Assembly (NCBI RefSeq): GCF_043290135.1
Contig: NC_134701.1
Location: 199,664,601-199,728,600 of the forward strand
Origin: Rhipicephalus microplus
Lineage: Eukaryota; Arthropoda; Arachnida; Ixodida; Ixodidae
DNA length: 64,000 nt
Reading direction: 5' to 3'
Below the pieces are notes generated by a model. That model had not been told where the DNA came from. It did not search any database and saw only the letters and a program-made list of their open reading frames with translations. Shown here piece after piece: positions 3,565-32,392 of this stretch (positions within the stretch are counted from its first letter, which is position 1; each line of letters opens with the position of its first letter). Both the position numbers and the translations under genes were made by a program.

Positions 3565-3570
3565 AGTTTC

Positions 3571-3585: not shown

Positions 3586-3618
3586 ACAAAGGCTCATTCG
3601 TGAGAGCTCTGCACAGGT

Positions 3619-6649: not shown

Positions 6650-6722
6650 GTGCTTGTGGTGTAGTGGTTATCACATCCGCTTAGCACGGGGAAGGCCCCA
6701 GGTTCGATCCGTGGCAGGCACA
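6650..6722 (+). tRNA. tRNA-Val-derived unit with AGC anticodon (probable pseudo-tRNA)
   Basis: The loop TTAGCAC would read AGC (alanine), but the anticodon stem is broken (TCCGC against GGGGA). Box A and the acceptor remain intact. An identical variant lies at 11316, inside the duplicated segment. Confidence 0.5.
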
Positions 6723-7371: not shown

Positions 7372-7394
7372 GCGCTAGTGGTGTTGTGGTTATC
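7372..7394 (+). tRNA. 5' fragment of an interrupted tRNA-Val unit
   Basis: The first 23 nt of a unit, ending GGTGTTGTGGTTATC, where the truncated retrotransposon begins. The same 15 nt restart after its poly(A) at 8297, which marks the target duplication. The matching uninterrupted unit is at 12038. Confidence 0.85.
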
Positions 7395-8296: not shown

Positions 8297-11200
8297 GGTG
8301 TTGTGGTTATCACATCCGCCTTACGCGTGGAAGGCACCAGGTTCGATCCTTGGCAGGCACGAGAGCATTCCTTTTTTTAGTTTCAATATACGTCATTGAA
8401 CAAAGACTCATTCATGAGAGCTCTGCACAGCTGTGCTTGTGGTGTAGTGGTTATCACATCCGCTTCACACGCGGAAGGCCCCAGGTTCGATAGCTGGCAG
8501 GCACAAGAGCATTTCTTTATTTAGTTTCCATATACGTCATTGAACAAAGACTCTTTCATGAGAGCTCTGCACAGCTGTGCTTGTGGTGTAGTGGTTATCA
8601 CATCCACCTTACGCGCGGAAGGCACCAGGTTCGATCCCTGGCAGGCACGAGAGCATTTTTTTTACAGTTTCAATATACTTCATTGAACAAAGACTCATTC
8701 GTGAGAGCTCTGCACAGCTGTGCTTGTGGTGTAGTGGTTATCACATCCGCCTAACACGCGGAAGGCCCCAGGTTCGATACCTGGCAGACACAAGAGCATT
8801 TCTTTATTTAGTTTCCATATACGTTATTGAACAAAGACTCATTCATGAGAGCTCTGCACAGCTGTGCTTGTGGTGTAGTGTTTGTCACATCCACCTTACG
8901 CGCGGAAGGCACCAGGTTCGATCCCTGGCAGGCACGAGAGCATTTCTTTTTTTTTACAGTTTCATTATACGTCTTTGAACAAAGACTCATTCGTGAGGGC
9001 TCTGCACAGCTGTGCTTGTGGTGTAGTGGTTATCACATCTGCCTTACACGCGGAAGGCCTCAGGTTAGATCCCTGGAAGGCACAAGAGCCCATCTTTTTT
9101 ACAGTTTAAATATACGTCATTGAACAAAGGCTCATTCGTGAGAGATCTGCGCAGCTGTGCTTGTGGTGTAGTGTTATCACATCCACTCAACACGCGGAAG
9201 GCCCCAGGTTTGATCCCTGACAGGCACAAGAGCACTTCTTTTTTACACTTTCAATATACGTCATTGAACAAAGGCTCATTCGTGAGAGCTCTGCAAAGCT
9301 GTGCTTGTGGTGTAGCGGTTATCACATCCGCCTAACACGCGGAAGGTCCCAGGTTTGATCCCTGGCAGACACAAGAGCACTTCTTTTTTACAGTTTCAAT
9401 ATACGTCATTGAACAAAGACTCATTTGTGAGAGCTCTGCTCAGCTGTGCTTGTGGTGTAGTGGCTGTCACATCCGCCTAACACGCGGAAGGCCCCAGGTT
9501 CGATCCCTGGCAGGCACAAGAGCATTTCTTTTTTTATTTTCAATATACGTCATTGAACAAAGACTCATTCATGAGAGCTCTGCACAGCTGTGCTTGTGGT
9601 GTAGTGGTTATCACATCCACCTAACACGCGGAAGGCCCCAGGTGCGATCCGTGGCAGGCACAAAAGTACTTCTTTTTTACAGTTTCAATATACGTCATTG
9701 AACAAAGGCTCATTCGTGAGAGCTCTGCACAGCTGTGCTTGTGGTGTAGTGGTTATCACATCCGCTTAACACGCGGAAGGCCCCAGGTTCTATCCCTGGC
9801 AGGCACAAGAGCATTTTTTAGTTTCAATATACGTAATTGAACAAAGGCTCATTCGTGAGGGCTGTGCACAGCTGCGCTTGTGGTGTGGTGGTTATTACAT
9901 CCGCCTAACACGCGGAAGGCCCCAGGTTCGATCCCTCGCAGGCACAAGAGCACTTTTTTTACAGTGTAAATATACGTCATTGAACAAAGGCTCATTTGTG
10001 AGAGCTCTGCACAGCTGTGCTTGTGGTGTACTGTTTATCACATCCACTTAACACGCGGAAGGCCCCAGGTTCGATCCCTGGCAAGCACAAGAGCACTTCT
10101 TTTTTACAGTTTCAATATACGTCATTGAACAAAGGCTGATTCGTGGGAGCTCTGCACAGCTGTGCTTGTGGTGTAGCGGTTATCACATCCGCCTAACACG
10201 CGGAAGGCCTCATGTTCGATCCCTGACAGGCACAGGAGCACTTATTTTTTACAGTTACAATATACGTAATTGAACAAAGGCTCATTCGTGAGAGCTCTAT
10301 ACAGCCGTGCTTGTGGTGTAGTGGTTATCACATCCGCCTAACACGCGGAAGGCACCAGGATCGATCCCTGGCAGGCACAAGAGCATTTCTTTTTTTAGTT
10401 TCAATATACGTCATTGAACAAAGGCTCATTCGTGAGAGCTCTGCACAGGTGTGCTTGTGGTGTAGTGGTTATCACATCCACTTAATACGCGGAAGGCGCC
10501 AGGTTCGATCTCTGGCAGCCACAAGAGCACTTCTTTTTTACAGTTTCAATATACGTAATTGAACAAAGGCTCATTCATGAGGGCTCTGCACAGCTGTGCT
10601 TGTGGTGTAGTGGTTATCACATCCGCTTAACACGCGAAAGGCCCCAGGTTCGATTCGTTGCAGGCACAAGAGCACTTCCTTTTTTACAGTTTCAATATGC
10701 TTCATTGAACAAAGCCTCATTCGTGAGAGCTCTGCGCAGCTGTGCTTGTGGTGTAGTGTTTATCACACCCGCCTTATGCGCGGAATGCACCAGGTTCGAT
10801 CCCTGGCAGGCACGAGAGCATTTTTTACAGTTTCAATATACGTCATTGAACAAATACTCATTCATGAGAGCACTGCACAGCTGTGCTTGTGGTGTAGTGG
10901 TTATCACATCCGCTTCACACGCGGAAGGCCCCAGGTTCGATCCATGGCAGGCACAAGAGCATTTCTTTTTTTAGTTTCAATATACGTCATTGAACAAACC
11001 TCATTCATGAGAGCTCTGCACTGCTGTGCTTGTGGTGCAGTGGTTATCACATCTGCCAAACACGCCAAAGGCGCCAGGTTCGATGCCTGACAGGCACAAG
11101 AGCACTTCTTTTTTACACTTTCAATATACGTCATTGAACAAAGGCTCATTCGTGAGAGCTCTGCAAAGCTGTGCTTGTGGTGTAGCGGTTATCACATCCG

Positions 11201-12037
11201 CCTAACACGCGGAAGGTCCCAGGTTTGATCCCTGGCAGACACAAGAGCACTTCTTTATTACAGTTTCAATATACGTCATTGAACAAAGACTCATTCATGA
11301 GAGCTCTGCACAGCTGTGCTTGTGGTGTAGTGGTTATCACATCCGCTTAGCACGGGGAAGGCCCCAGGTTCGATCCGTGGCAGGCACAAGAGCACTTCCT
11401 TTTTTACAGTTTCAATATGCTTCATTAAACAAAGCCTCATTCGTGAGAGCTCTGCGCAGCTGTGCTTGTGGTGTAGTGTTTATCACACCCGCCTTATGCG
11501 CGGAAGGCACCAGGTTCGATCCCTGGCAGGCACGAGAGCATTTTTTACAGTTTCAATATACGTCATTAACAAAGACTCATTCATGAGAGCATTGCACAGC
11601 TGTGCTTGTGGTGTAGTGGTTATCACATCCGCTTCACACGCGGAAGGCCCCAGGTTCGATCCCGGCAGGCACAAGAGCATTTCTTTTTTTAGTTTCAATA
11701 TACGTCATTGAACAAAGACTCATTCATGAGAGCTCTGCACAGCTGTGTTTGTGGTGTAGTGGTTATCACATCCGCCTTACACGCGGGAGGCACCAGGTTC
11801 GATCCCTGGCAGGCACGAGAGCATTTCTTTTTTTTACAGTTTCGATATACTTTATTGAACAAAGACTCATTTGTGAGAGCTCTGCACAGCTGTGGTTGTG
11901 GTGTAGTGGTTATCACATCCGCCTCACACGCGGAAGGCCCCAGGTTCGATCCGTGGCAGGCACAAGAGCCCTTCTTTTTTTACAGTTTCAATATACGTTA
12001 TTGAACAAAGGCTCATTCGTGAGAGTTCGGCACAGTT
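8297..12037 (+). repeat. tRNA-Val tandem array, block 2, first half
   Basis: Starts and anticodons: 8297 (lacks nt 1-8, UAC), 8433 CAC, 8577 UAC, 8720 AAC, 8864 UAC, 9012 UAC, 9157 AAC (72 nt), 9301 AAC, 9446 AAC, 9590 AAC, 9735 AAC, 9874 AAC, 10017 AAC, 10162 AAC, 10307 AAC, 10451 AAU, 10596 AAC, 10742 UAU, 10883 CAC, 11026 AAC (A33, degenerate), 11171 AAC, 11316 AGC, 11462 UAU, 11602 CAC (72 nt), 11745 UAC, 11892 CAC. From about 9407 to 12060 this is a near-identical copy of about 4160-7394. The offset is 5247 bp up to 10957 and 4666 bp afterwards, because units 5781-6289 have no counterpart here. Confidence 0.94.
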
Positions 12038-15000
12038 GCGCTAGTGGTGTTGTGGTTATCACATCCGCCTTACGCGCGGAAGGCCCCAGGTTCGATAGCT
12101 GGCAGGCACAAGAGCATTTCTTTATTTAGTTTCCATATACGTCATTGAACAAAGACTCTTTCATGAGAGCTCTGCACAGCTGTGCTTGTGGTGTAGTGGT
12201 TATCACATCCACCTTACGCGCGGAAGGCACCAGGTTCGATCCCTGGCAGGCACGAGAGCATTTTTTTTACAGTTTCAATATACGTCATTGAACAAAGACT
12301 CATTCATGAGTGCTCTGCACAGCCGTGCTTATGGTGTAGTGGTTATCACATCCGCTTCACACGCCGAAGGCCCCAGGTTCGATACCTGGCAGACACAAGA
12401 GCATTTCTTTATTTAGTTCATATACGTCATTGAACAAAGACTCATTTGTGAGAGCTCTGCACAGCTGTGTTTGTGGTGTAGTGGTTATCACATCCGCCTC
12501 ACACGCGGAAGGCCCCAGGTTCGATCCGTGGCAGGCACAAGAGCCCTTCTTTTTTTACAGTTTCAATATACATTATTGAACAATGGCTCATTCGTGAGAG
12601 TTCGGCACAGTTGCGCTTGTGGTGTAGTGGTTATCACATCCGCCTTACGCGTGGAAGGCACCAGGTTCGATCCCTGGCAGGCACGAGAGCATTCCTTTTT
12701 TTTAGTTTCAATATACGTCATTGAACAAAGACTCATTCATGAGAGCTCTGCACAGCTGTGCTTGTGGTGTAGTGGTTATCACATCCGCTTCACACGCGGA
12801 AGGCCCCAGGTTCGATCCCTGGCAGGCACAAGAGCATTTCTTTTTTCAGTTTCAATATACGTCATTGAACAAACCTCATTCATGAGAGCTCTGCACTGCT
12901 GTGCTTGTGGTGCAGTGGTTATCACATCCGCCTAACACGCGGAAGGCCCCAGGTTCGATCCGTGGCAGGCCCAAGAGCACTTCTTTTTTTACAGTTTCAA
13001 TATACTTCATTGAACAAAGACTCATTCGTGAGAGCTCTGCACAGCTGTGCTTGTGGTGTAGTGGTTATCACATCCGCCTAACACGCGGAAGGCCCCAGGT
13101 TCGATACCTGGCAGACACAAGAGCATTTCTTTATTTAGTTTCCATATACGTTATTGAACAAAGACTCATTCATGAGAGCTCTGCACAGCTGTGCTTATGG
13201 TGTAGTGTTTGTCACATCCACCTTACGCGCGGAAGGCACCAGGTTCGTTCCCTGGCAGGCACGAGAGCATTTCTTTTTTTTACAGTTTCATTATACGTCT
13301 TTGAACAAAGACTCATTCGTGAGGGCTCTGCACAGCTGTGCTTGTGGTGTAGTGGTTATCACATCTGCCTTACACGCGGAAGGCCTCAGGTTAGATCCCT
13401 GGAAGGCACAAGAGCCCATCTTTTTTACAGTTTAAATATACGTCATTGAACAAAGGCTCATTCGTGAGAGATCTTCGCAGCTGTGCTTGTGGTGTAGTGT
13501 TATCACATCCACTCAACACGCGGAAGGCCCCAGGTTTGATCCCTGACAGGCACAAGAGCACTTCTTTTTTACACTTTCAATATACGTCATTGAACAAAGG
13601 CTCATTCGTGAGAGCTCTGCAAAGCTGTGCTTGTGGTGTAGCGGTTATCACATCCGCCTAACACGCGGAAGGTCCCAGGTTTGATCCCTGGCAGACACAA
13701 GAGCACTTCTTTTTTACAGTTTCAATATACGTCATTGAACAAAGACTCATTCATGAGAGCTCTGCACAGCTTTGCTTGTGGTGTAGTGGTTATCACATCC
13801 GCTTCACACGCGGAAGGCCCCAGGTTCGATCCCTGGCAGGCACAAGAGCACTTATTTTTTTACAGTTTCAATATACTTCATTGAACAAAGACTCATTCGT
13901 GAGAGCTCTGCACAGCTGTGCTTGTGGTGTAGTGGTTATCACATCCGCCTAACACGCGGAAGGCCCCAGGTTCGATACCTGGCAGACACAAGAGCATTTC
14001 TTTATTTAGTTTCCATATACGTCATTGAACAAAGGCTCATTCGTGAGAGTTCGGCACAGTTGCGCTTGTGGTGTAGTGGTTATCACATCCGCCTTACGCG
14101 TGGAAGGCACCAGGTTCGATCTCTGGCAGGCACGAGAGCACTTCTTTTTTTACAGTTTCAATATACGTTATTGAACAAAGGCTCATTCGTGAGAGTTCGG
14201 CACAGTTGAGCTTGTGGTGTAGTGGTTATCACATCCGCCTTACGCGTGGAAGGAACCAGGTTCGATCCCTGGCAGGCGCGAGAGAATTCCTTTTTTCAGT
14301 TTCAATATACGTCATTGAACAAACCTCATTCATGAGAGCTCTGCACTGCTGTGCTTGTGGTGCAGTGGTTGTCACATCCGCCTAACACGCGGAAGGCCCC
14401 AGGTTCGATCCGTGGCAGGCACAAGAGAATTTCTTTTTTCAGTTTCAATATACGTCTTTGAACAAAGACTCATTCGTGAGAGCTCTGCACAGCTGTGCTT
14501 GTGGTGTAGTGGTTATCACATCCGCCTTACACGCGGAAGGCCACAGGTTCGATCTCTGGCAGGCACAAGAGCACTTCTTTTTTACAGTTTAAATATACGT
14601 CATCGAACAAAGGCTCATTTGTGAGGGCTCTGCACAGCTGTGCTTGTGGTGTAGTGGTTATCACATCCACTTACCACGCGGAAGGCCCCAGGTTCGATCC
14701 CTGGCAAGCACAAGAGCACTTCTTTTTTACAGTTTCAATATACGTCATTGAACAAAGGCTCATCTGTGAGAGCTCTGCACAGCTGTGCTTGTGGTGTAGT
14801 GGTTGTCACATCCGCCTCACACGCGGAAGGCCCCAGGTTCGATCCGTGGCAGGCACAAGAGCACTCCGTTTTTTACAGTTTCAATATACGTTATTGAACA
14901 AAGGCTCATTCGTGAGAGTTCGGCACAGTTGCGCTTGTGGTGTAGTGGTTATCACATCCGCCTTACGCGTGGAAGGCACCAGGTTCGATCCCTGGCAGGC

Positions 15001-15092
15001 GCGAGAGCATTCCTTTTTTTAGTTTCAATATACGTCATTGAACAAAGACTCATTCATGGGAGCTCTGCACAGCTGTGCTTGTGGTGTAGTGG
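12038..15092 (+). repeat. tRNA-Val tandem array, block 2, second half
   Basis: Starts and anticodons: 12038 UAC, 12182 UAC, 12325 CAC, 12467 CAC, 12613 UAC, 12758 CAC, 12901 AAC, 13047 AAC, 13191 UAC, 13338 UAC, 13483 AAC (72 nt), 13627 AAC, 13772 CAC (nt 1 is T), 13918 AAC, 14062 UAC, 14208 UAC, 14351 AAC, 14495 UAC, 14640 ACC, 14785 CAC, 14931 UAC, and 15075 interrupted after tRNA nt 18 by the element that starts at 15093. Units 13047-13699 are near copies of 8720-9373 (offset about 4327 bp), so the block is a mosaic of unequal exchanges. Confidence 0.94.
14640..14712 (+). tRNA. tRNA-Val-derived unit with ACC anticodon (probable pseudo-tRNA)
   Basis: The loop TTACCAC places ACC (glycine) in the anticodon position. 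The stem TCCAC/GCGGA has one mismatch, and the 3' acceptor strand reads CAAGCAC. It is probably one substitution away from an AAC parent. Confidence 0.5.
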
Positions 15093-15134
15093 GGATTCCA
15101 CTTCGGGCCGCGATAGCGAGCGGATGCGTTTGGA

Positions 15135-16337
15135 ATGGGCTCCGTCGGAGCGGTATCAGCGGCCGTTTCTGGCCGCGGAAACAGGGTGATAGCTGCCTCG
15201 GATAACGAGTATCGCGTTGTTCTGCCTAGTCTGCCTTCAGGACGTCTGGTTTTGAATACTGTTTTTGTGCACGAGGATGTGAGGGCACGGCCCTACCGTG
15301 TAGAAGACTTCAGGGATACGCTGAGTGATTTGAAACTGCTCTCCGAGGTTACGTCCTTGGGGGCGTATCAAATGAATCACGTTTGGGCCGTCACGTTCAA
15401 ATGTGCCGAAGGTGCGAAGAGGCTGCTGGAAAAAGCGGAAGTGAAAGTGAAGGGCCAGCGTTGCCTCCTCATCGATCCATCGAACCAGGAGCTTCGGTTG
15501 AAGCTGCACTGGCTCCTGCCTACCGTACCGGACGACGACGTGCGAGCGGCCTTCCTGAACTATGGCAGAGTGACGGACATTATCAAGGAACGGTTGAAGG
15601 TCAGTGGTGTGACTGACAAGGCGTCAACGACGCGAAATGTGACGATGACACTTAAGGCGGGAGTCAAGCCAGAAGATTTACCCCATCAAATAAGGATTGC
15701 TGGTGAGCTGGCTCTTGTGGTGGTGCCGGGAAGGGCACCGCTATGCCTTCGTTGCCAGTGCACTGGACACATTCGTCGGGACTGTAAGGTACCACGGTGC
15801 ACGTTGTGTCATCGCTTTGGACACAACGAGTCGGAATGCGTGCGTACCTACGCCAGTGTTGCAGGGCCCGTGGGAAGCGACGACACTTCGGAGCTCCTAA
15901 TGGACGAAGCAGATTCCGAGGCAGCAGCGAGAGTGGAGGCAGAAAGTGCCACGATGGACAGCGCGCCAGCTGAGCAAATCTCGGGTGAGAGTGCTCACGT
16001 AAAGTCGACGAACCTCAAAGCCGAAGATACATTGTTGGTGAAAAATGATTCCTCGGAAGCACTGCAGACGCAGGAGGACAAAAGCAACGTGACAGAAGAG
16101 GTCAACAGGGAAGTAGTGGAGGAAATGGACATTTCCAAGGAGGGCACCACGACGAATAAGCGATCACACGAAGGCGCCGAGGGAGAGAGCGAATCTACCG
16201 ACCCAAGCAGTCGCGATGAACCTCCAGCAAAAGCAACCCCTGTACGTCGACCGACAGTGCGGCCACGGCCGAACATCCCACAGGATCGGAGGCTGACGGC
16301 GACGACGAAGCCGCCGCCACCGCCCCCGGTCACGTAG
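15135..16337 (+). CDS. Retrotransposon ORF1 nucleic-acid-binding protein, two CCHC knuckles
   Basis: A 400-residue ORF1, the gag-like protein expected to coat element RNA and assist target-primed reverse transcription. Residues 1-110 carry a conserved segment (PSLPSGR, RPYRVEDFRDTL, LGAYQMNHVWAV). Residues 120-190 look like a small RRM-like fold (DDDVRAAFLNYGRV). Two C-x2-C-x4-H-x4-C knuckles follow at C204-C207-H212-C217 and C222-C225-H230-C235. The C-terminal 165 residues are acidic, low in complexity and end in a proline run. The start is the first ATG that gives the N-terminus shared with other copies, only 42 bp from the element 5' end. The frame is intact. Confidence 0.9.
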   Translation: MGSVGAVSAAVSGRGNRVIAASDNEYRVVLPSLPSGRLVLNTVFVHEDVRARPYRVEDFRDTLSDLKLLSEVTSLGAYQMNHVWAVTFKCAEGAKRLLEKAEVKVKGQRCLLIDPSNQELRLKLHWLLPTVPDDDVRAAFLNYGRVTDIIKERLKVSGVTDKASTTRNVTMTLKAGVKPEDLPHQIRIAGELALVVVPGRAPLCLRCQCTGHIRRDCKVPRCTLCHRFGHNESECVRTYASVAGPVGSDDTSELLMDEADSEAAARVEAESATMDSAPAEQISGESAHVKSTNLKAEDTLLVKNDSSEALQTQEDKSNVTEEVNREVVEEMDISKEGTTTNKRSHEGAEGESESTDPSSRDEPPAKATPVRRPTVRPRPNIPQDRRLTATTKPPPPPPVT

Positions 16338-16437
16338 CAGTAAGCTGTGTAAGCCTCGACCTATGTCGCGGGCCCCAAGGTCTTGTGTAGACAGGAGCAT
16401 AAGCCCATACTCTGGGTCTCTATTATTAATTATACAA

Positions 16438-19400
16438 ATGGCGCTGCCAGATAAATCCTTGCGATTTGCTACAATCAATGTTCGAGGGCTTGCGGCGAGG
16501 AGAAAACAACGACAGTTGTATAGACTGGTGATCGAACATGATTTAGACATCATTGCCATACAAGAAACCAAAATTGGAAGTGAAGATGAGACCAAGAGTA
16601 TGGTGCTACCTTTCATGTCAATGTACTACGCGGGTATGAGTCACGCCATAGGGCAATCCGCGGGGTGCGTTCTTTTTGTGCGCCAACACCCAGGCCTTGA
16701 AGTGAGGGGCGTGAGGTCAGATTTGGCGGGGCGCATGGTTTTGTGTGATTTTCGTTATGGTTCAGTTGAATGGCGAGTGATATGCCTTTATGCTCCTAAT
16801 TTGTTCGACGAACGAAGACATTTCTTCGAGAGTGTCAGAAATTACTGCAACGTCGAAAGGAACCTGGTACTGATGGGGGACTTTAATTGTGTACTGGCAG
16901 CGCGTGATAAATCAAGTGGTACAGCGTATAGAGACGCCAGCACGGCTGAGCTTCGCGAATTAATTGATGAATACGGGCTTGAGGACGTGGCGGACTGCTT
17001 GGAGTGCGACCGCATTGTGCGCTTCACGCATTTCCAAGCAGCCAGCCACGCCCGACTGGACAGAGTGTATGTTCCGGCTGAATTGATAGCACTTGCGCAA
17101 GAATATCGTGTGCAATCGGTGTCATTCAGTGACCACTGTCTAGTCATGTTCGATGTTAATAAGAAAGCGAAAAACCGAAATAAGTTTGCGTGGGAATTAT
17201 GGAAACTTAATGCTAAAATTTTGGAGGATGAGGTTTACTGTGAGAAAGTGTTAGCCCTGCTAGAAGAGATAAAGAACCAGACAAACACAACAATATGTGA
17301 GAAATGGCAAACATTTAAGCAAACAGCTAAATTGAAGGCACTTGAACAAGCCAGCGCTTTAAAGCACGAAAAGAATAAGTATGAGGAAAACCTGCGGCAA
17401 AGCTTGCAAATGCTAACTTATGAAGAAAGCCTATCGCCTGGGACGTTCAAAGACGACATTAACACACTGAAGCAAAAACTTGAGCAGGCTGATATCGAAC
17501 GCTATCGGGGGGCGTTGGTGCGAGCTAGAGTAGAAGCAACGATAACAGGCGAGGCGCCAACTAAACGAGCCCTCGCAAAGGAAAAAAAGTGGGCCCGCCG
17601 GAACGAGATTCACGAAGTGGAACAAGACGGTGTTATCTTATATGATCAGAGCGGCATCGAACACGTGTTCACAGCGTTCTACAGAAAGCTGTTCGCGCGT
17701 TGCCCGGTGGACGCAGAGGGTTTCGAGACGGAATTCATGCCTTTAATGCCAAAGATTGACGATAGCTCAAAGGAAATGTTAGAGCGCCGTATTACGGCCG
17801 ATGAGATGGCGGTGGCGATAGACGATTTGAAACGTGGGAAATCTCCCGGGCCCGACGGGCTAGGAGCCGATTTTTATAAGGCGTTCAAGTACGAAGTAGC
17901 CCCTATACTGGCCGCAATTTTAGACGATGCATATGAGCGCAAACGACTACCACCTTCATTCCTGTCCACACACACAGTTTTTATCCCGAAAACAGATGAT
18001 CGCGACACATTAAAGCGGGTAACAGCATATCGCCCTATCAGCTTAGCGAACGTCGACTATAAGATATTCTTGAAAGTGTTGGCTAAAAGACTGCAAACAG
18101 TAGTGAAAGATATAGTTGGACCACACCAGACGTGCGGTATCAAGGAACGAACCATTTTCACGAACATTCATACGGCGAGAAGCATACTGGAGTGTTGTGA
18201 CGTATTGTGCAAGAAGGTCGCAATGCTCCAGTTGGATCTGGAAAAGGCGTTCGACCGGGTACCGCACGACATACTATTTGCCATTCTGGAGTACGTGAAC
18301 GTAGGATCTGTTATCATGGAAGGTGTCGCAATGGCGTACAGGGGTTGCACGACAAGGTTGATAATAAATAAGTCAGTAGGAGAGCTTATCGAAGTGCAGC
18401 GGTCGGTGCGCCAGGGGTGCCCACTATCGCCGTTACTTTTCGCTTTATATATTGAGCCCTTGTGCCTCAGCGTAATACGGGCTAACTGTATCAATGGCTT
18501 TAAAATGCAGCAAGCGGAGGTAAAACTACTCGCTTATGCGGACGACATCGCGGTGTTTTGTGGGGACCACGCCAGTATCATGAAAACTGTGGAAATTGTG
18601 AAGCGTTATTGTGTTACTAGTGGCAGTGCAGTTAACTGGGGCAAGAGCCTCGGAATCTGGCATGGAGCATGGACAATGAAACCCAGTACCTTTGCCAACA
18701 TTCAATGGATTTCCACTCCCACGAAATACCTAGGCGTTCCTTTAGAGTTTTACCGGGACAGTGAACCATACTGGCAAAACCAAGTTGCGGAAATGCGTGG
18801 AAGGACTGAGAGGACAAAGGGCTCGGAATTGTCTATGTTTGCACGTACCATGGTGTGTAATGTGTTTTTCATTACCAAACTTTGGTATGTGTTGAGTGTT
18901 TTGCACTGATCACGCATTAACATACAAAAGCTCCACAGAATTCTGGCTGTTTTTGTTTGGGGATCGAGTTGGGAGAGGACAAGCCGCACCAACTTGTTCC
19001 GACGTGTACGTCATGGAGGTCGTAGCCTGTCGCACTTATTCCTGAGGCAAATAGTGAACCGGTTCTGCTTCCTTAGGGATGTGAAGGACCCCTTTTTGCG
19101 CACTGTATTACAGCTCAGACTTTGCAAACTTGTGCCGGACTTTGTGGTATCCACCGAATGTATTGAAGGCGGGGTTTTCGGTTTTTTGAAGGAGGTTGTG
19201 ATGGCTTATAAGTTCTTGCGTGCTCGATTCTCATGCGAATATCTGGCAGGAGTGAAACGAAGGAAGCTATACAAAGATCTTGTGGATATACTACTCCCCG
19301 TGCCTTTGTATCGCACAATATATAGTGCCAAGTATGGAAGTGATGTCCTGAAGCGTGTCAAACATATGTATGTAGCTCCAGGAGCCAAGTCCTTTTTCTT

Positions 19401-19839
19401 CAGATTGCACACCGGGACACTAGAGGTAAAAACATGGCTACAGGAAAAAGGAATGTATGTACCATGGGGAGTGCACTGTTTTTTATGCAGAAAGCCTGAA
19501 ACCATTGAGCACGTCTTCTTAGAATGCTGGGAAGGCGTGTTCTTCTGGGATATATTACAAAGAACGCTAAAGAAAGACCTCCCTTTAGACCCACAAGGAA
19601 TTCGTTTCCTAACTGTGGACAACGAAGAAGGTGTCCCGTTTGATGCTGTTATGCTACTGGGTTTGCACTGCATAATGAAGGCCTGCATGGCCGCACGACA
19701 TGTAGATATAGATGCAAGATCGGCACAAGAGTACTTCCGCGAATCAGTGGGCAGGTTCCTGGAAGCACATAAATCTTTAGATCCGATACCTGAATGGGTA
19801 TCGAGGATCGAGCCACTCATGAACATGAGACGATTTTAG
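16438..19839 (+). pseudogene. Retrotransposon ORF2 (endonuclease-RT-zinc finger), full length except for one TGA
   Basis: The frame runs 1133 residues from the ATG at 16438, chosen because it lies just before the endonuclease motif LRFATINVRGL; an upstream in-frame ATG at 16363 is possible. An APE endonuclease comes first (QETK, GDFN near residue 147, RLDR, FSDH), then RT with KSPGPDGL, RQGCPLSP and YADD at residues 700-703. The finger is C1014-C1017-H1025-C1030. A TGA at 18907-18909 (codon 824) stands where relatives have cysteine (HCSR). Otherwise the frame is unbroken to the stop at 19839. It could be a very young copy, an assembly error at one base, or a readthrough case; the first is most likely. 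Confidence 0.88.
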
Positions 19840-19986
19840 CCATTACACGCCAGCCAAAGTTTGGTGTCTCCTTTTACCCATGCCCATTTATGTATCTATG
19901 TCTTATGTGCCTTGCATTATTTCTTGTGTTCCCTGACTGTATTTGTGTTTATATGTGTACGTCTAAGCAGGCAATAAAGAAAAAGA

Positions 19987-22900
19987 AAGCTTGTGGTGTA
20001 GTGGTTATCACATCCGCTTCACACGCGGAAGGCCCCAGGTTCGATCCCTGGCAGGCACAAGAGCATTTCTTTTTTCAGTTTCAATATACGTCATTGAACA
20101 AAGACTCATTCATGAGAGCTCTGCACAGCTGTGCTTGTGGTGTAGTGGTTATCACATCCGCCTTACGCGCGGAAGGCACCAAGTTCGATCCCTGGCAGGA
20201 ACGAGAGCATTTCTTTTTTTACAGTTTCAATATACGTCTTTGAACAAAGACTCATTCGTGAGAGCTCTGCACAGCTGTGCTTGTGGTGTAGTGGTTATCA
20301 CATCCGCCTAACACGCGGAAGGCTCCAGGTTCGATACCTGGCAGACACAAGAGCATTTCTTTATTTAGTTTCCATATACGTCATTGAACAAAGACTCATT
20401 CATGAGAGCTCTGCACAGCTGTGCTTGTAGTGTAGTGTTTATCACATCCACCTTACGCGCGGAAGGCACCAGGTTCGATCCCTGGCAGGCACAAGAGCAG
20501 TTCTTTTTTACAGTTTAATTATACGTCATCGAACAAAGGCTCATTTGTGAGAGCTCTGCACAGCTGTGCTTGTGGTGTAGTGGTTATCACATCCACTTAA
20601 CACGCGGAAGGCCCCAGGTTCGATCCCTGGCAAGCACAAGAGCACTTCTTTTTTACAGTTTCAATATACGTCATTGAACAAAGGCTCATTCGTGAGAGCT
20701 CTGCACAGCTGTGCTTGTGGTTTAGGGGTTATCACATCCCCCTAACACGCGGAAGGCCTCAGGTTCGATCCCTGACAGGCACAAGAGCACTTCTTTTTTA
20801 CAGTTTCAATATGCTTCATTGAACAAAGACTCAATCGTGAGAGCTCTGCACAGCTGTGGTTGTGGTGTAGTGGTTGTCACATCCGCCTCACACGCGGAAG
20901 GCCCCAGGTTCGATCCGTGGCAGGCACAAGAGCACTTCTTTTTTTACAGTTTCAATATACGTTATTGAACAAAGGCTCATTCGTGAGAGTTCGGCACAGT
21001 TGCGCTTGTGGTGTAGTGGTTATCACATCCGCCTTACGCGTGGAAGGCACCAGGTTCGATCCCTGGCAGGCGCGCGAGCATTCCTTTCTTTAGTTTCAAT
21101 ATACGTCATTGAACAAAGACTCATTCATGAGAGCTCTGCACAGCTGTGCTTGTAATGTAGTGGTTATCACATCCGCTTCACACGCGGAAGGCCCCAGGTT
21201 CGATCCCTGGCAGGCACAAGAGCATTTCTTTTTTCAGTTTCAATATACGTCATTGAACAAAGACTAATTCATGAGAGCTCTGCACAGCTGTGCTTGTGGT
21301 GCAGTGGTTATCACATCCGCCTAACACGCGGAAGGCCCCAGGTTCGATCCGTGGCAGGCACAAGAGCACTTCTTTTTTTACAGTTTCAATATACTTCATT
21401 GAACAAAGACTCATTCGTGAGAGCTCTGCACAGCTGTGCTTGTGGTGTAGTGGTTATCACATCCGCCTAACACGCGGAAGGCCCCAAGTTCGATACCTGG
21501 CAGACACAAGAGCATTTATTTATTTAGTTTCAATATACGTCATTGAACAAAGACTCATTCATGAGAGCTCTGCACAGCTGTGCTTGTGGTGTAGTGGTTA
21601 TCGCATCCGCTTAACACACGGAAGGCTCCAGGTTCGATCTCTGGCAGGCACAAGAGCACTTCTTTTTTACAGTTTCAATATACGTAATTGAACAAGGGCT
21701 CATTCGTGAGAGCTCTGCACAGCTGTGCTTGTGGTGTAGTGGTTATCAAATACGCCTAACACGCGGAAGGCCCCAGGTTAGATCCCTGGCAGGCACAAGG
21801 GCATTTCTTTTTTACAGTTTCAATATACGTCATTGAACAAAGACTCATTCGTGAGAGCTCTGCACAGCTGTGCTTGTGGTGTAGTGGTTATCACATCCGC
21901 CTTACGCGCGGAAGGCACCAGGTTCGATCCCTGGCAGGAACGAGAGCATTTCTTTTTTACAGTTTCAATATACGTCATTGAACAAAGACTCATTCGCGAG
22001 AGCTCTGCACAGCTGTGCTTGTGGTGTAGTGGTTATCACATCCGCCTTACGCGCGGAAGGCACCAGGTTCGATTCCTGGCTGGAACGAGAGCATTCCTTT
22101 TTTTACAGTTTCAATATACGTCTTTGAACAAAGACTCATTCGTGAGAGCTCTGCACAGCTGTGCTTGTGGTGTAGTGGTTATCACATCCTCCTAACACGC
22201 GGAAGGCCCCAGGGTCGATACCTGGCAGACACAAGAGCATCTCTTTATTTAGTTTCAATATGCTTCATTGAACAAAGCCTCATTCGTGAGAGCTCTGCAC
22301 AGCTGTGCTTGTGGTGTAGTGGTTATCACATCCGCCTTACGCGCGGAAGGCACCAAGTTCGATCCCTGGCAGGAACGAGAGGATTTCTTTTTTTACAGTT
22401 TCAATATACGTCTTTGAACAAAGACTCATTCGTGAGAGCTCTGCACAGCTGTGCTTGTGTTGTAGTAGTTATCACATCCGCCTAACACGCGGAAGGCCCC
22501 AGGTTCGATACCTGGCAGACACAAGAGCATTTCTGTATTTAGTTTCCATATACGTCATTGAACAAAGACTCATTCATGAGAGCTCTGCACAGCTGTGCTT
22601 GTGGTGTTGTGTTTATCACATCCACATTACGCGCGGAAGGCACCAGGTTCGATCCCTGGCAGGCACGAGAGCATTTCTTTTTTTTACAGTTTCAATATAC
22701 GTAATTGAACAAAGGCTAATTCGTGAGAGCTCTGCACAGATGTGCTTGTGGTGTAGTGGTTATCACATACGCCTAACACGCGGAAGGCCCCAGGTTAGAT
22801 CCCTGGCAGGCACAAGAGCATTTCTTTTTTACAGTTTCAATATACGTCATTGAACAAAGACTCATTCGTGAGAGCTCTGCACAGCTGTGCTTGTGGTGTA

Positions 22901-23752
22901 GTGGTTATCACATCCGCCTTACGCGCGGAAGGCACCAGGTTCGATTCCTGGCAGGAACGAGAGCATTCCTTTTTTTACAGTTTCAATATACGTCTTTGAA
23001 CAAAGACTCATTCGTGAGAGCTCTGCACAGCTGTGCTTGTGGTGTAGTGGTTATCACATCCGCCAAACACGCGGAAGGCCCTAGGCTCGATACCTGGCAG
23101 ACACAAGAGCATTTCTTTATTTAGTTTCAATATGCTTCATTGAACAAAGCCTCATTCGTGAGAGCTCTGCACAGCTGTGCTTGTGGTGTAGTGTTTATCA
23201 CACCCGCCTTATGCGCGGAAGGCACCAGGTTCGATCCCTGGCAGGCACGAGAGCATTGTTTTACAGTTGCAATATACGTCTTTGAACAAAGACTCATTCG
23301 TGAGAGCTCTGCACAGCTGTGCTTGTTGTGTAGTGGTTATCACATCCGCCTTACACGCGGAAGGCCCCAGGTTCGATCTCTGGCAGGCACAAGAGCACTT
23401 CTTTTTTAAAGTTAAATATACGTCATCAAACAAAGGCTCATTTGTGAGAGGCATGCACAGCTGTGCTTGTGGTGTAGTGGTTATCACATCCACTTAACAC
23501 GCGGAAGGCCCCAGGTTCGATCCCTGGCAAGCACAAGAGCACTTCTTTTTTACAGTTTCAATATACGTCATTGAACAAAGGCTCATTCGTGAGAACTCTG
23601 CACAGCTGTGCTTGTGGTGTAGGGGTTATCACATCCCCCTAACACGCGGAAGGCCTCAGGTTCGATCCCTGACAGGCACAAGAGCACTTCTTTTTTACAG
23701 TTTCAAAATACTTCATTGAACAAAGACACAATCGTGAGAGCTCTGCACAGCT
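19987..23752 (+). repeat. tRNA-Val tandem array, block 3, part 1 (26 units)
   Basis: Starts and anticodons: 19987 CAC (nt 1-2 replaced by element tail), 20131 UAC, 20277 AAC, 20421 UAC, 20566 AAC, 20711 AAC, 20856 CAC, 21002 UAC, 21146 CAC, 21290 AAC, 21436 AAC, 21580 AAC, 21725 AAC, 21870 UAC, 22015 UAC, 22161 AAC, 22305 UAC, 22451 AAC, 22595 UAC, 22742 AAC, 22887 UAC, 23033 AAC (A33), 23177 UAU, 23319 UAC, 23463 AAC, 23608 AAC. Units at 20711 and 23608 share a TCCCC anticodon stem mismatch and a GGGGTTATC D-loop, which marks them as recent relatives. Confidence 0.93.
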
Positions 23753-26700
23753 GTGGTTGTGGTGTAGTGGTTGTCACATCCGCCTCACACGCGGAAGGCC
23801 CCAGGTTCGATCCGAGGCAGGCACAAGAGCACTTCTTTTTTTACAGTTTCAATATACGTTATTGAACAAAGGCTCATTCGTGAGAGTTCGGCACAGTTGA
23901 GCTTGTGGTGTAGTGGTTATCACATCCGCCTTACACGTGGAAGGCACCAGGTTCGATCCCTGGCAGGCGCGAGAGCATTCCTTCTTTTAGTTTCAATATA
24001 CGTCATTGAACAAAGACTCATTCATGAGAGCTCTGCACAGCTGTGCTTGTGGTGTAGTGGTTATTACATCCGCCTAACACGCGGAAGGCCGCAGGTTCGA
24101 TCCGTGGCAGGCACAAAAGCACTTCTTTTTTTTTACAGTTTCAATATACTTCATTGAACAAAGACTCATTCGTGAGAGCTCTGCACAGCTGTGCTTGTGG
24201 TGTAGTGGTTATCACATCCGCCTAACACGCGGAAGGCCGCAGGTTCGATACCTGGCAGACACAAGAGCATTTCTTTACTTAGTTTCAATATATGTCATTG
24301 AACAAAGACTCATTCATGAGAGCTCTGCACAGCTGTGCTTGTTGTGTAGTGGTTATCACATCCGCTTAACACGCGGAAGGCTACAGGTTCGATCTCTGGC
24401 AGGCACAAGAGCACTTCTTTTTTACAGTTTCCATATACGTAATTGAACGAAGGCTCATTCGTGAGAGCTCTGTACAGATGTGCTTGTGGTGTATTGGTTA
24501 TCACATACGCCTAACACGCGGAAGGCCCCAGGTTAGATCCCTGGCAGGCACAAGAGCATTTCTTTTTTACAGTTTCAATATACGTCATTGAACAAAGACT
24601 CATTCGTGAGAGCTCTGCACAGCTGTGCTTGTGGTGTAGTGGTTATCACATCCGCCTTACGCGCGGAAGGCACCAGGTTCGATCCCTGGCAGGAACGAGA
24701 GCATTTCTTTTTTTACAGTATCAATATACGTCTTTGAACAAAGACTCATTCGTGAGAGCTCTGCACAGCTGTGCTTGTGTTGTAGTGGTTATCACATCCG
24801 CCTAACACGCGGAAGGCCCCAGGTTCGATTTCTGGCAGACACAAGAGCATTTCTGTATTTAGTTTCCATATACGTCATTGAACAAAGACTCATTCATGAG
24901 AGCTCTGCACAGCTGTGCTTGTGGTGTTGTGTTTGTCACATCCACCTTACGCGCGGAAGGCACCAGGTTCGATCCCTGGCAGGCACGAGAGCATTTCTTT
25001 TTTTTACAGTTTCAATATACGTCTTTGAACAAAGACTCATTCGTGAGGGCTCTGCACAGCTGTGCTTGTGGTGTAGTGGTTATCACATCTGCCTTACACG
25101 CGGAAGGCCTCAGGTTTGATCCCTGGAAGGCACAAGAGCACTTCTTTTTTACAGTTTAAATATACGTCATTGAACAAAAGCTCATTCGTGAGAGCTCTGC
25201 ACAGCTGTGCTTGTGGTGCAGTGGTTATCACATCCACTTCACACGCGGAAGGCTCCAGGTTTGATCTCTGGCAGGCACAAGAGCATTTCTTTTTTTTTCA
25301 ATATACGTCATTGAACAAAGGCTCATTCGTGAGAGATCTGCACAGCTGTGCTTGTGGTGTAGTGTTATCACATCCACTCAACACGCGGAAGGCCCCAGGT
25401 TCAATCCCTGACAGGCACAAGAGCACTTCTTTTTTACACTTTCAATATACGTCATTGAACAAAGGCTCATTCGTGAGAGCTCTGCAAAGCTGTCCTTGTG
25501 GTGTAGCGGTTATCACATCCGCCTAACACGCGGAAGGTCCCAGGTTTGATCCCTGGCAGACACAAGAGCACTTCTTTTTTACAGTTTGAATATACGTCAT
25601 TGAACAAAGACTCATTCATGAGAGCTCTGCACAGCTGTGCTTGTGGTGTAGTGGTTATCACATCCGCTTAACACGCGGAAGGCCCCAGGTTCGATTTGTG
25701 GCAGGCACAAGAGCACTTCCTTTTTTACAGTTTCAATATGCTTCATTGAACAAAGCCTCATTCGTGAGAGCTCTGCACAGCTGTGCTTGTGGTGTAGTGT
25801 TTATCACACCCGCCTTATGCGCGGAAGGCTCCAGGTTCGATCCCTGGCAGGCACGTGAGCATTTTTTTTACAGTTTCAATATACGTCATTGAACAAAGAC
25901 TCATTCATGAGAGCACTGCACAGCTGTGCTTGTGGTGTAGTGGTTATCACATCCGCTTCACACGCGGAAGGCCCCAGGTTCGATCCCTGGCAGGCATGGG
26001 AGCATTTCTTTTTTCAGTTTCAATATACGTCATTGAACAAAGACTCATTCATGAGAGCTATGCACAGCTGCGTTTGTGGTGTAGTGGTTATCACATCCGC
26101 CTTACACGCGGAAGGCCCCAGGTTCGATCCTTGGCAGCCACAAGAGCATTTCTTTTTTTACAGTTTCGATATACTTCCTTTAACAAAGACTCATTTGTGA
26201 GAGCTCTGCACAGCTGTGGTTGTGGTGTAGTGGTTGTCACATCCACCTCACACGCGGAAGGCCCTAGGTTCGATCCGTGGTAGGCACAAGAGCACTTCTT
26301 TTTTTACAGTTTCAATATACGTTATTGAACAAAGGATCATTCATGAGAGTTCGGCACAGTTGCGCTTGTGGTGTAGTGGTTATCGCATCCGCCTTTCGCG
26401 TGGAAGTCACCAGGTTCGATCCCTGGCAGGCGCGAGAGCATTTCTTTTTTCAATTTCAATATACGTCTTTGAACAAAGACTCATTCGTGAGAGCTCTGCA
26501 CAGCTGTGCTTGTGGTGTAGTGGTTATCACATCCACTTAACACGCGGAAGGCCCCAGGTTTGATCCCTGGAAGACACAAGAGCACTTCTTTTTTACAGTT
26601 TGAATATACGTCATTGAACAAAGACTCATTCATGAGAGCTCAGGACAGCTGTGCTTGTGGTGTAGTGGTTATCACATCCGCTTAACACGCCGAAGGACCC

Positions 26701-27388
26701 AGGTTCGATCCGTGGCAGGAACGAGAGCATTTCTTTTTTTTACAGTTTCAATATACGTCTTTGAACAAAGACTCATTCTTGAGAGCTCTGCACAGCTGTG
26801 CTTGTGGTGTAGTGGTTATCACATCCGCCTTACACGCGGAAGGCTCCAGGTTCGATCTCTGGCAGGCACAAGAGCACTTTTTTTTTACAGTTTAAATATA
26901 CGTCATCGAACAAAGGCTCATTTGTGAGAGGTCTGCACAGCTGTGCTTGTTGTGTGGTGGTTATCACATCCACTTAACACGCGGAAGGCCCCAGGTTCGA
27001 TCCCTGGCAAGCACAAGAGCACTGCTTTTTTACAGTTTCAATATACGTCATTGAACAAAGGCTCATTCGTGAGAGCTCTGCACAGCTGTGCTTGTGGTGT
27101 AGGGGTTATCACATCCCCCTAACACGCGGAAGGCCTCAGGTTCGATCCCTGACAAGCACAAGAGCACTTCTTTTTTACAGTTTCAATATACTTCATTGAA
27201 CAAAGACTCAATCACGAATGAGTTATGAGTGCAGAGCTCTGCACAGCTGTGGTTGTGGTGTAGTGGTTGTCACATCCGCCTCACACGCGGAAGGCCCCAG
27301 GTTCGATCCCTGGCAGGCACAAGAGCATTTCTTTTTTTTCAATATACGTCATTGAACAAAGACTCATTTGTGAGAGCTCTGCACAGCT
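23753..27388 (+). repeat. tRNA-Val tandem array, block 3, part 2 (25 units)
   Basis: Starts and anticodons: 23753 CAC, 23899 UAC, 24043 AAC, 24191 AAC, 24335 AAC, 24480 AAC, 24625 UAC, 24771 AAC, 24915 UAC, 25062 UAC, 25207 CAC, 25348 AAC (72 nt), 25492 AAC, 25637 AAC, 25783 UAU, 25926 CAC, 26070 UAC, 26216 CAC, 26362 UUC, 26506 AAC, 26651 AAC, 26798 UAC, 26943 AAC, 27088 AAC, 27249 CAC. The spacer before 27249 carries an extra segment of about 16 bp (around 27217-27232). Confidence 0.93.
26362..26434 (+). tRNA. tRNA-Val-derived unit with UUC anticodon (probable pseudo-tRNA)
   Basis: The loop CTTTCGC gives UUC (glutamate) from a UAC-type parent by one change. Nucleotide 2 is C (GCGCTTG), which loses an acceptor pair, and the 3' anticodon stem is GTGGA. 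It is probably non-functional. Confidence 0.5.
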
Positions 27389-30300
27389 GTGGTTGTGGTG
27401 TAGTGGTTATCACATCCGCTTAACACGCAGAAGGCCCCAGGTTCGATCCATGGCAGGAACGAGAGCATTTCTTTTTTTACAGTTTAAATATACGTCATCG
27501 AACAAAGGCTCATTTGTGAGAGGTCTGCACAGCTGTGCTTGTGGTGTAGTGGTTGTCACATCCACTTAACACGCGGAAGGCCCCAGGTTCGATCCCTGGC
27601 AAGCACAAGAGCACTTCTTTTTTACAGTTTCAATATACGTCATTGAACAAAGGCTCATTCGTGAGAGCTCTGCACAGCTGTGCTTGTGGTGTAGGGGTTG
27701 TCACATCCCCCTAACACGCGGAAGGCCTCAGGTTCGATCCCTGACAGGCACAAGAGCACTTCTTTTTTACAGTTTCAATATACTTCATTGAACAAAGACT
27801 CAATCGTGAGAGCTCTGCACAGCTGTGGTTGTGGTGTAGTGGTTGTCACATCCGCCTCACACGCGGAAGGCCCAAGGTTCGATCCCTGGCAGGCACAAGA
27901 GCATTTCTTTTTTCAGTTTCAATATACGTCATTGAACGAAGACTCATTCATGAGAGCTCTGCACAGCTGTGCTTGTGGTGCAGTGGTTATCACATCCGCC
28001 TAACACGCGGAAGGTCCCAGGTTCGGTCCGTGGCAGGCACAAAAGCACTACTTTTTTTACAGTTTCAATATACTTCATTGAACAAAGACTCATTCGTGAG
28101 AGCTCTGCACAGCTGTGCTTGTGGTGTAGTGGTTATCACATCCGCCTAACACGCGGAAGGCCCCAGGTTAGATTCCTGGCAGGCAGAAGAGCATTTCTTT
28201 TTTACAGTTTCAATATACGTCATTGAACAGATTCATTCGTGAGAGCTCTGCACAGCTGTGCTTGTGGTGTAGTGAATATCACATCCGCCTTACGCGCGGA
28301 AGGCACCAGGTTCGATCCCTGGCAGGAACGAGAGCATTTCTTTTTTTACAGTATCAATATACGTCTTTGAACAAAGACTAATTCGTGAGAGCTCTGCACA
28401 GCTGTGCTTGTGGTGTAGTGGTTATCACATCTGCCTTACACGTGTCAGGCCTCAGGTTTGATCCCTGGAAGGCACAAGAGCACTTCTCTTTTACAGTTTA
28501 AGTATACGTCATTGAACAAAGGCTCATTCGTGAGAGCTCTGCACAGCTGTGCTTGTGGTGCAGTGGTTATCACATCCACTTAATACGCGGAAGTCTCCAG
28601 GTTCGATCTCTGGCAGGCACAAGAGCACTTCTTTTTTACAGTTTCAATATACGTCATTGAACAAAGGCTCATTCGTGAGAGCTCTGCACAGCTGTGCTTG
28701 TGGTGTAGTGTTTATCACATCCGCCTTACGCGCGGAAGGACCAGGTTCGATTCCTGGCAGGCACAAGAGCATTTCTTTTTTTTTCAATATACGTCATTGA
28801 ACAAAGGCTCATTCGTGAGAGATCTGCACATCTGTGCTTGTGGTGTAGTGTTATCACATCCACTCAACACGCGGAAGGCCCCAGGTTCGATCCCTGACAG
28901 GCACAAAAGCACTACTTTTTTTACAGTTTCAATATACTTCATTGAACAAAGACTCATTCGTGAGAGCTCTGCACAGCTGTGCTTGTGGTGTAGTGGTTAT
29001 CACATCCGCCTAACACGCGGAAGGCCCCAGGTTAGATTCCTGGCAGGCAGAAGAGCATTTCTTTTTTACAGTTTCAATATACGTCATTGAACAGATTCAT
29101 TCGTGAGAGCTCTGCACAGCTGTGCTTGTGGTGTAGTGGTTATCACATCCGCCTTACGCGCGGAAGGCACCAGGTTCGATCCCTGGCAGGAACGAGAGCA
29201 TTTCTTTTTTTACAGTATCAATATACGTCTTTGAACAAAGACTAATTCGTGAGAGCTCTGCACAGCTGTGCTTGTGGTGTAGTGGTTATCACATCTGCCT
29301 TACACGTGTCAGGCCTCAGGTTTGATCCCTGGAAGGCACAAGAGCACTTCTCTTTTACAGTTTAAGTATACGTCATTGAACAAAGGCTCATTCGTGAGAG
29401 CTCTGCACAGCTGTGCTTGTGGTGCAGTGGTTATCACATCCACTTAATACGCGGAAGTCTCCAGGTTCGATCTCTGGCAGGCACAAGAGCACTTCTTTTT
29501 TACAGTTTCAATATACGTCATTGAACAAAGGCTCATTCGTGAGAGCTCTGCACAGCTGTGCTTGTGGTGTAGTGTTTATCACATCCGCCTTACGCGCGGA
29601 AGGACCAGGTTCGATTCCTGGCAGGCACAAGAGCATTTCTTTTTTTTTCAATATACGTCATTGAACAAAGGCTCATTCGTGAGAGATCTGCACATCTGTG
29701 CTTGTGGTGTAGTGTTATCACATCCACTCAACACGCGGAAGGTTCCAGGTTCGATCCCTGACAGGCACAAGAGCACTTCTTTTTTACACTTGCAATATAC
29801 ATCATTGAACAAAGGCTCATTCGTGAGAGCTCTGCAAAGCTGTCCTTGTGGTGTAGCGGTTATCACATCCGCCTAACACGCGGAAGGTCCCAGGTTTGAT
29901 CCCTGGCAGACACAAGAGCACTTCTTTTTTACAGTTTGAATATACGTCATTGAACAAAGACTCATTCATGAGAGCTCTGCATAGCTGTGCATGTGGTGAA
30001 GTGGTTATCACATTTGCTTAAATCGCGAAAGGCCCCTGGTTCGATCCGTGGCAGGCACAAGAGCACTTCCTTTTTTACAGTTTCAATATGCTTCATTGAA
30101 CAAAGCCTTATTCGTGAGAGCTCTGCACAGCTGTGCTTGTGGTGTAGTGTTTTTCACACCCGCTTTATGCGCGGAAGGCACCAGGTTCGATCCCTGGCAG
30201 GTACGTGAGCATTTTTTTACAGTTTCAATATACGTCATTGAACAAAGACTCATTCATGAGAGCACTGCACAGCTGTGCTTGTGGCGTAGTGGTTATCACA

Positions 30301-31009: not shown

Positions 31010-31046
31010 TATTCTGCTTCTGGACGCCGGTTGGTGCAGACGCAGG

Positions 31047-32323: not shown

Positions 32324-32392
32324 AGGTGAACAACATGGATCCACCCTGGACGACGAGAGCCCAATAAGTGAACGTGCAGGGCTCGTTCACTT

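Follow-up and report, generated by a model that had tools for sequence, protein, structure and literature searches.

LINEs in a tick tRNA-Val array belong to a clade that inserts at the 5′ start of Pol III transcription units, with the Pol III initiation machinery as probable guide

What directs a LINE to one position inside a tRNA gene? The question is raised by a 64-kb stretch of the Rhipicephalus microplus genome (the window), in which ARAGORN finds 149 tRNAs and Rfam 140 tRNA matches, all on the + strand, and in which LINEs interrupt tRNA-Val units (Table 1). The initial annotation placed every LINE junction of the window within a tRNA-Val unit and in a single orientation, and read this as non-random, site-directed insertion of APE-type L1/Tx1-like elements inside the body of tRNA-Val genes. 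All of this stands except the target, which proved to be far broader than tRNA-Val.

Table 1. Target array and inserted elements in the 64-kb window
Feature	Positions	Strand	Basis or remark
tRNA-Val tandem array (target), units of ∼145 bp	3475..31010	+	ARAGORN, Rfam; broken by E2 and E3
E1, LINE, 5′ end beyond window	1..3474	+	3′ junction; ends in AATAAAGAAAAAAAAAA, at tRNA-Val nt 1
E2, LINE, 5′-truncated	7395..8296	+	target duplication GGTGTTGTGGTTATC
E3 left target duplication, tRNA-Val nt 3–18 including A box	15077..15092	+	junction reading
E3, full-length LINE, 4.9 kb	15093..19988	+	junctions, ORFs, family 3′ ends
E3 ORF1 frame, 406 aa	15117..16337	+	zinc-knuckle-like cysteine motifs by eye; no Pfam match
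E3 ORF2 frame with APE endonuclease and reverse transcriptase domains; 870 aa before an in-frame stop	16297..18909	+	PF03372, PF00078
E3 ORF2 C-terminal part beyond stop, 309 aa	18910..19839	+	zf-RVT
E3 right target duplication	19989..20004	+	tRNA restarts from nt 3
E4, LINE mosaic	31010..34561	+	5′ 1.4 kb 98% to E6; 3′ 2.3 kb 92% to E5
E5, full-length LINE in tRNA-Val	34724..39580	+	junctions; sampled relatives mostly at dispersed tRNA-like sequences
P-element-like DNA transposon, not LINE	40032..46899	+	inverted ends CATAGAGAAA..., GTGTTGT/GTGTAGT repeat, PF21789
E6, full-length LINE	46910..51822	+	junctions; relatives at A-box/B-box sequences
E7, full-length LINE	51986..56821	+	junctions; relatives at tRNA genes
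E8, a LINE 3′ tail of only ∼14–16 nt with a tRNA-Val start on either side	56984..57001	+	junction reading
E9, 5′ part of LINE	57149..58100	+	∼62–65% to other copies

In the window, left tRNA-Val fragments end at nt ∼14–18 (15075–15092, 30992–31009, 34708–34723, 51967–51985 and 57134–57148), and the downstream copies restart at nt 1–3 (3475, 19989, 34562, 39581, 51822/3, 56822 and 57002). A further fragment that had been listed as a LINE edge, 40016–40031, borders the P-element-like transposon instead; as E6 starts near 46910, this transposon splits the left tRNA fragment of E6. The earlier list of fragments was otherwise present in the sequence but had overlooked E2. With tRNA nt 1 correctly placed at the G that precedes GCTTG by two bases, the duplicated site runs from nt 1/3 to ∼14–18 and takes in the A box completely or almost completely; target duplications in the window cover roughly nt 1–18. 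E2 differs in register, its duplication lying 6–8 nt deeper into the tRNA. The LINE families of the window are mostly 60–63% identical to each other at the nucleotide level, yet insertion site and orientation are common to all. Chance would hardly give this, nor an insertion such as E8 (near 57000), so short a tail set between two copies of the tRNA start. E1 is closer to E7 (95% identity), and the complete element, L038, has tRNA-Val flanks at both ends. E2 shows 67–73% identity to the 3′ parts of E4 and E5, the upper figure taking in tRNA units.

ORF2 carries an N-terminal APE endonuclease domain followed by a reverse transcriptase, and no restriction-like endonuclease appears among its Pfam results. 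Its best PDB match is human L1 ORF2p, over residues 55–864. The C-terminal cysteine motif, zf-RVT, was found in P0003 barely above the Pfam cut-off; zf-CCHC fell under the cut-off in two of four ORF1 frames, and the zinc-knuckle motif of P0001 was recognized by eye. Judged by these domains, the window elements are APE-type two-ORF LINEs of the L1/Tx1 group. A protein search returned 83 relatives, mostly unnamed. A tree sets a clade of 74 rows against 9 outgroup rows, of which a single one (P0081) is named TX1, and contains no L1 rows. Nucleotide relatives elsewhere amounted to at least 29 loci, which among the matches listed were all from bacterial records and covered the endonuclease part; none was found in the viral contigs searched.

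To follow the families beyond the window, we sampled their best-scoring copies genome-wide: 40 scored places out of 71 first-look candidates for E3, 25 copies for E7, 20 of 40 scored for E5 and 8 of 40 scored for E6. (First-look candidates, which are unconfirmed as copies, number 902 for E5 and 856 for E6.) Across the four families, 89 of 91 3′ junctions adjoin a unit of one of three kinds: tRNA genes, tRNA-like repeats and 5S rRNA genes. L075 is left out of the sample. For the E3 family, all 40 3′ flanks are at Pol III units (31 tRNA by ARAGORN or Rfam, 7 tRNA-like only, 2 in 5S). All 23 readable E7-family junctions are at tRNA genes, the 8 sampled E6 relatives are at A-box/B-box sequences, and 18 of 20 E5-family 3′ ends are at Pol III-type units, the ends of L095 and L103 showing no full unit. 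Because ARAGORN and Rfam call just 1 of the 20 E5 flanks a tRNA, we adopted a test for the A and B boxes. It is passed by 73 of 83 3′ junctions, versus 73 of 2,400 random stretches of the window and 41 of 1,660 shuffles, but 24 of the 83 flanks also pass when reverse-complemented. Isotypes entered at the same position include Ala, Arg, Asn, Cys, His, Ile, Leu, Met, Pro, Ser, Thr and Trp. This points to LINEs that target Pol III-type genes as a class, not one sequence. Some of the tRNA-like targets look degenerate and may be untranscribed.

Insertions have one orientation. The poly(A) 3′ end of the element meets the mature RNA sequence at about its first nucleotides, whereas the 5′ end joins the target ∼14–19 nt further in, leaving most or all of the target gene, A and B boxes included, downstream of the element. 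Target duplications of 13–20 bp, mostly 14–19, are present in 31 of 43 rows, some places being counted twice; another 4 rows have 10–12 bp, and 8 are without a call, with locus ends missing or the right end mis-set. Two E5-family copies also carry duplications of 13–20 bp. The register is not exact: insertions at Arg-TCT and His genes lie ∼10 nt upstream, and at Ile-TAT the register is also upstream, while L076 and L084 share with E2 a register 6–8 nt inside. Six junctions were read by eye (L025, which is the same place as L043, and L036, L070, L087, L091 and L099).

We favour the reading, with a probability of about 0.65, that these elements are a LINE clade whose speciality is the 5′ start of Pol III transcription units and whose probable guide is the Pol III initiation machinery. 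Its main rival is direct reading: a protein of the element would itself recognise the DNA of the A box and cut a fixed number of nucleotides away, with the Pol III machinery uninvolved. After eight junctions had been re-set by typed anchors (L036, L040, L058, L059, L070, L081, L087 and L099), 77 of 83 flanks were found to have an A box, with one mismatch or none, that starts within 20 nt of the junction, compared to ∼21% of shuffles; the start is most often 7 nt past the junction in each of the three families counted. That many E5 targets are tRNA-like sequences uncalled by either program also fits A-box reading. However, because A box and transcription start are linked in tRNAs, the spacing alone cannot tell A-box reading from guidance by the machinery, and two observations speak against the former. 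First, the cut sites share little sequence, none of 24 columns exceeding 0.8 bit over 15 targets. Second, 5S genes, identified by Rfam RF00001, are entered at their start by two families at places within 1 nt of each other (L041/L042 and L039), and there is no A box there, the best match at the insertion place being the commonest value of shuffles. The 5S evidence comprises two or three copies, as a single event may underlie both L041 and L042, which share 99.8% identity across 7.6 kb; L039 is without its 3′ end. On balance, we regard A-box reading as possible but doubtful.

Three other explanations fare worse. Strict sequence specificity for tRNA-Val, as first proposed, would account for every LINE junction in the window, but the window happens to sit in a tRNA-Val array. 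Elsewhere, nearly all copies were expected at tRNA-Val; instead, copies with ORF2 95–99% identical to that of E3 lie on other chromosomes at tRNA-Ala, Arg, Thr, Met and Asn genes and in 5S, and the wider sample adds further isotypes and tRNA-like sequences, which rules this target out as exclusive and makes such specificity very improbable. Equally hard to credit is broad insertion followed by survival only of copies in Pol III genes. Multicopy genes are held to tolerate insertions in the available text of PMC4640811, but in a 3.26-Gb genome survival alone would hardly bring 89 of 91 junctions close to a single position with a single orientation. Least probable of all is a single insertion amplified along with the satellite array, a concern of the initial annotation: some copies have the look of duplicates (L013–L016, judged by their flanks, and L041/L042), but families, isotypes, chromosomes and duplications all differ, and merging flanks of at least 85% identity leaves 21 distinct targets for E3 and 12 for E7, which refutes it.

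Returning to guidance by the Pol III machinery, the geometry suggests how an insertion might proceed. The endonuclease would first nick the Pol III template strand around nt +1 to +5. Target-primed reverse transcription would follow, primed by the 3′ end thus freed and beginning at the oligo(A) tail, and the second strand would be cut after the A box. Less certainly, the site may be found via TFIIIB, TFIIIC or the polymerase rather than by strict DNA sequence. In its fullest form, which we hold slightly less firmly, the model is of an animal LINE clade that is steered by the Pol III initiation complex, opens the template strand of any active Pol III unit (tRNA, 5S or tRNA-derived repeat) within its first nucleotides and rebuilds the gene behind itself.

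Dewa, Keno and Mutsu belong to the Tx1 clade, in the same broad APE group as the tick LINEs. As far as the available descriptions go, they too target small-RNA genes or arrays of them, but each has a single target and no spread over isotypes; that of Dewa is the spacer of tRNA-Leu (PMC3706591). The same source, in its available part, places Dada DNA transposons inside tRNA genes of zebrafish and Perkinsus; these differ in having a DDE transposase and one gene family each, and the duplications exemplified there are of 6 or 7 bp. NeSL-1_TV, LIN15_SM and LIN25_SM are LINEs reported, in the accessible text of PMC4640811, to be specific for tRNA-Pro, tRNA-Arg and tRNA-Glu genes, respectively, and the LIN families come from planaria, an animal. 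Unlike the APE-type tick LINEs, they are NeSL-related, with a restriction-like endonuclease and a single isotype each. Closer in breadth are the L1-clade LINEs of dictyostelids (TRE5, TRE3, NLTR-A and NLTR-B), which are directed to many tRNA genes. According to the portions available of PMC5911963 and PMC5006619, NLTR-A inserts 2–6 bp upstream of tRNA genes; NLTR-A and NLTR-B carry an RNase H domain (PMC5006619); and TRE5, which possesses an APE domain and whose ORF1 protein interacts with TFIIIB, integrates near 5S genes as well (PMC5911963). TRE5 is described 40–54 bp upstream of the tRNA gene and TRE3 downstream. The dictyostelid elements thus lie outside the gene, whereas the tick junctions are mostly at tRNA nt ∼1–3 and ∼14–19, inside the mature RNA sequence, with a duplication covering the A box and in an animal host. 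For Ty3 and Tj1, the Pol III start sets the position, and Tj1 is found at both tRNA and 5S genes (PMC5911963, available text); these are yeast LTR elements, however, that use an integrase and insert 1–4 bp (Ty3) or 1–10 bp (Tj1) upstream of the start. The initial annotation's survey of precedents was incomplete, as NeSL-1_TV, LIN15_SM, LIN25_SM, Dewa and NLTR-A are also linked to tRNA. The comparable elements that we found in print, as far as the sources describe them, are amoebal and yeast and located outside the gene, and in the mainly open-access journal literature searched, we found no APE-type LINE of an animal that is distributed among Pol III genes.

If the favoured reading is true, this would be the first animal LINE known to choose sites by gene class rather than by a single sequence, joining yeast LTR elements and amoebal LINEs as a further example. 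First-look candidates (71 for E3, 902 for E5 and 856 for E6) offer plenty of material for studying how an APE endonuclease acquires specificity, and as families differ in their choices (tRNA genes and 5S versus tRNA-like repeats), comparison would allow the determinant to be mapped. The system would also inform on how tRNA arrays coexist with parasites, and its proteins may perhaps be useful for inserting DNA at multicopy sites.

We also considered a hybrid Pol III promoter, formed by the left A box and a B box of the element. It received little support in the first 400 bases, where E3, E5 and E9 have no B box with at most two mismatches and weak ones occur at position 349 in E6 and 40 in E7. 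Finally, ORF1 frames of 404–423 aa together with ORF2 frames of 1144–1180 aa are present in 10 of the 43 loci scanned (duplicates counted), which suggests recent activity.

Nine LINE copies or pieces (E1–E9; L1/Tx1-type elements with two ORFs and an APE endonuclease) break up tRNA-Val units in the window, all on the + strand, and on both the presence of the tRNA-Val fragments and the single orientation of the insertions the initial annotation holds. Pairwise nucleotide identity among these copies is mostly 60–63% (57–67% over all stretches), with exceptions for E1 versus E7 (95%), E2 versus E4/E5 (67–73%, the upper figure including tRNA units) and the mosaic E4, whose two-family join may be the product of template switch or recombination. 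LINE 5′ ends have an ATTC start in common, and most 3′ ends carry AATAAAG(A)n; E8 is an extreme 5′ truncation. E3 has an ORF1 frame of 406 aa and an ORF2, interrupted by one stop, with APE, RT and zf-RVT domains; by sequence, human L1 ORF2p provides the best solved structures for this ORF2.

Features located in the window
Feature	Position	Strand	Remarks
tRNA-Val array	3475-31010		AAC, CAC and TAC anticodons mixed; a few individual units are called Ile, Ala, Gly, Glu or Phe instead
E4 mosaic	31010-34561		1.4 kb 5′ part 98% to E6; 2.3 kb 3′ part 92% to E5
P-element-like DNA transposon	40032-46899		inverted ends CATAGAGAAA; ~7-bp repeat
E8	56984-57001		reduced to ~14-16 nt from a LINE 3′ tail; target duplication present
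gypsy-like pol frame, open	59649-63254	-	1201 aa; protease, RT, RNase H, integrase domains
tandem repeat	63586-63672		24-bp unit, 3.6 copies

tRNA-Val had been taken as the only target. Elsewhere in the genome, near-identical copies of the window LINEs are not in tRNA-Val but sit where other tRNA genes (called with ARAGORN) begin. A protein search of the genome (52 of 90,143 candidates scored) gave 55 matches, of which 30 loci were retained. In the family of E3 (40 places scored of 71 candidates, all 40 3′ flanks read), 31 flanks were called tRNA at the junction, seven were tRNA-like only (L023, L040, L044, L048, L053, L061, L064) and two lay in 5S rRNA genes. For the E7 family, 25 copies were listed, and all 23 readable 3′ junctions adjoin a tRNA gene, 21 of them called by ARAGORN and two lacking the first six nt; another member, L039, has lost its 3′ end, and its 5′ end lies inside 5S. 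In the E5 family, 40 of 902 candidates were scored and 20 flanks read; 18 of these 20 ends adjoin tRNA-like sequence carrying both an A and a B box, 16 assigned by script and two (L091, L099) by eye. The target met most often in this family is a dispersed repeat, for which a first look gives 961 candidates. All eight E6-family ends read (856 candidates, 40 scored) are at such targets, five called tRNA by ARAGORN. Summed over the four families, 89/91 of the 3′ junctions read are at tRNA, tRNA-like or 5S sequence; specificity for tRNA-Val alone is rejected. Merging flanks at least 85% identical leaves 21 (E3), 12 (E7) and 12 (E5) distinct targets.

Most insertions share a register. Target duplications of 13–20 bp, mostly 14–19, occur in 31 of the 43 rows of a duplication table in which some places are counted twice, and span mostly tRNA nt 1–3 to nt 14–19; two E5-family copies have duplications of 14 and 15 bp. 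Four rows hold 10–12 bp (E6, with its left fragment split, E7, L046, L047), and eight give no length, an end being absent from the locus or mis-set (L026, L027, L031–L033, L039, L049, L050). At 5S the duplicated stretch is nt ~4–19. Arg-TCT and His are entered ~10 nt upstream, Ile-TAT also upstream, and the copies E2, L076 and L084 sit 6–8 nt inward. Downstream of the LINE lies most or all of the target gene, both boxes included.

A combined A- and B-box test was passed by 37/40 E3-family flanks (misses: L023 and the two 5S), 16/20 of the E5 family and 20/23 of the E7 family, where the misses (L036, L070, L087) reflect wrongly script-set junctions, the flanks showing Ala, Arg and Ala, respectively. 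Background was 73/2,400 for random window stretches outside the arrays and 41/1,660 for shuffles. Reverse complements of the flanks passed in 24/83 cases, and hence the test is not strand-specific.

The flanks establish the position and orientation of the insertions, their duplications and the gene classes entered. Insertion would proceed by target-primed reverse transcription, with an inferred order of the two strand cuts, and the Pol III initiation machinery probably guides the LINE to its site. That the LINE's own protein reads the A box directly seems less likely to us. Taken by itself, an A box with no more than one mismatch is present in 77/83 flanks versus ~21% of shuffles, eight junctions having been hand-set beforehand. 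Cut sites of 15 targets hold at most 0.8 bit in any of 24 columns (G at position 1), two further columns holding ~0.6 bit. The 5S site's best A-box match has two mismatches, the value most frequent among shuffles. Guidance by Pol III machinery is suggested chiefly because the 5S start, without an A box, is also entered, an argument drawn from two or three copies.

The window lies at 199664601-199728600 of its contig in a 3.26-Gb genome; it holds 149 tRNAs (ARAGORN), and the array has a repeat unit of ~145 bp. Genome-wide, the 16-mer GCTTGTGGTGTAGTGG is present 1199 times in the forward and 44 times in the reverse direction (reversed-pattern control, 2 and 0). A run of array units is apparently duplicated internally (~4–7 kb versus ~9–12 kb). 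Clusters or tandem arrays of several further isotypes also occur in the genome (L021, L024, L029, L043, L044, L045, L050). Passages of PMC3160391 report Ruka SINEs to be numerous in R. microplus and able, potentially, to fold in the manner of serine tRNA. A U6 search of the genome gave 47 matches among those listed (best 48 of 203,000 candidates scored), 43 exceeding the cut-off.

A quick LG+G4 tree, whose long outgroup branches drew a tool warning, groups the window families with 24 other relatives in a starred clade of 30 rows, nested in a 74-row clade opposite nine outgroup rows, Danio TX1 among them. An Ixodes scapularis relative has 49% identity. The P-element-like transposon is inserted into E6's left tRNA-Val fragment, and all those of its protein relatives whose source organism is named come from ticks.
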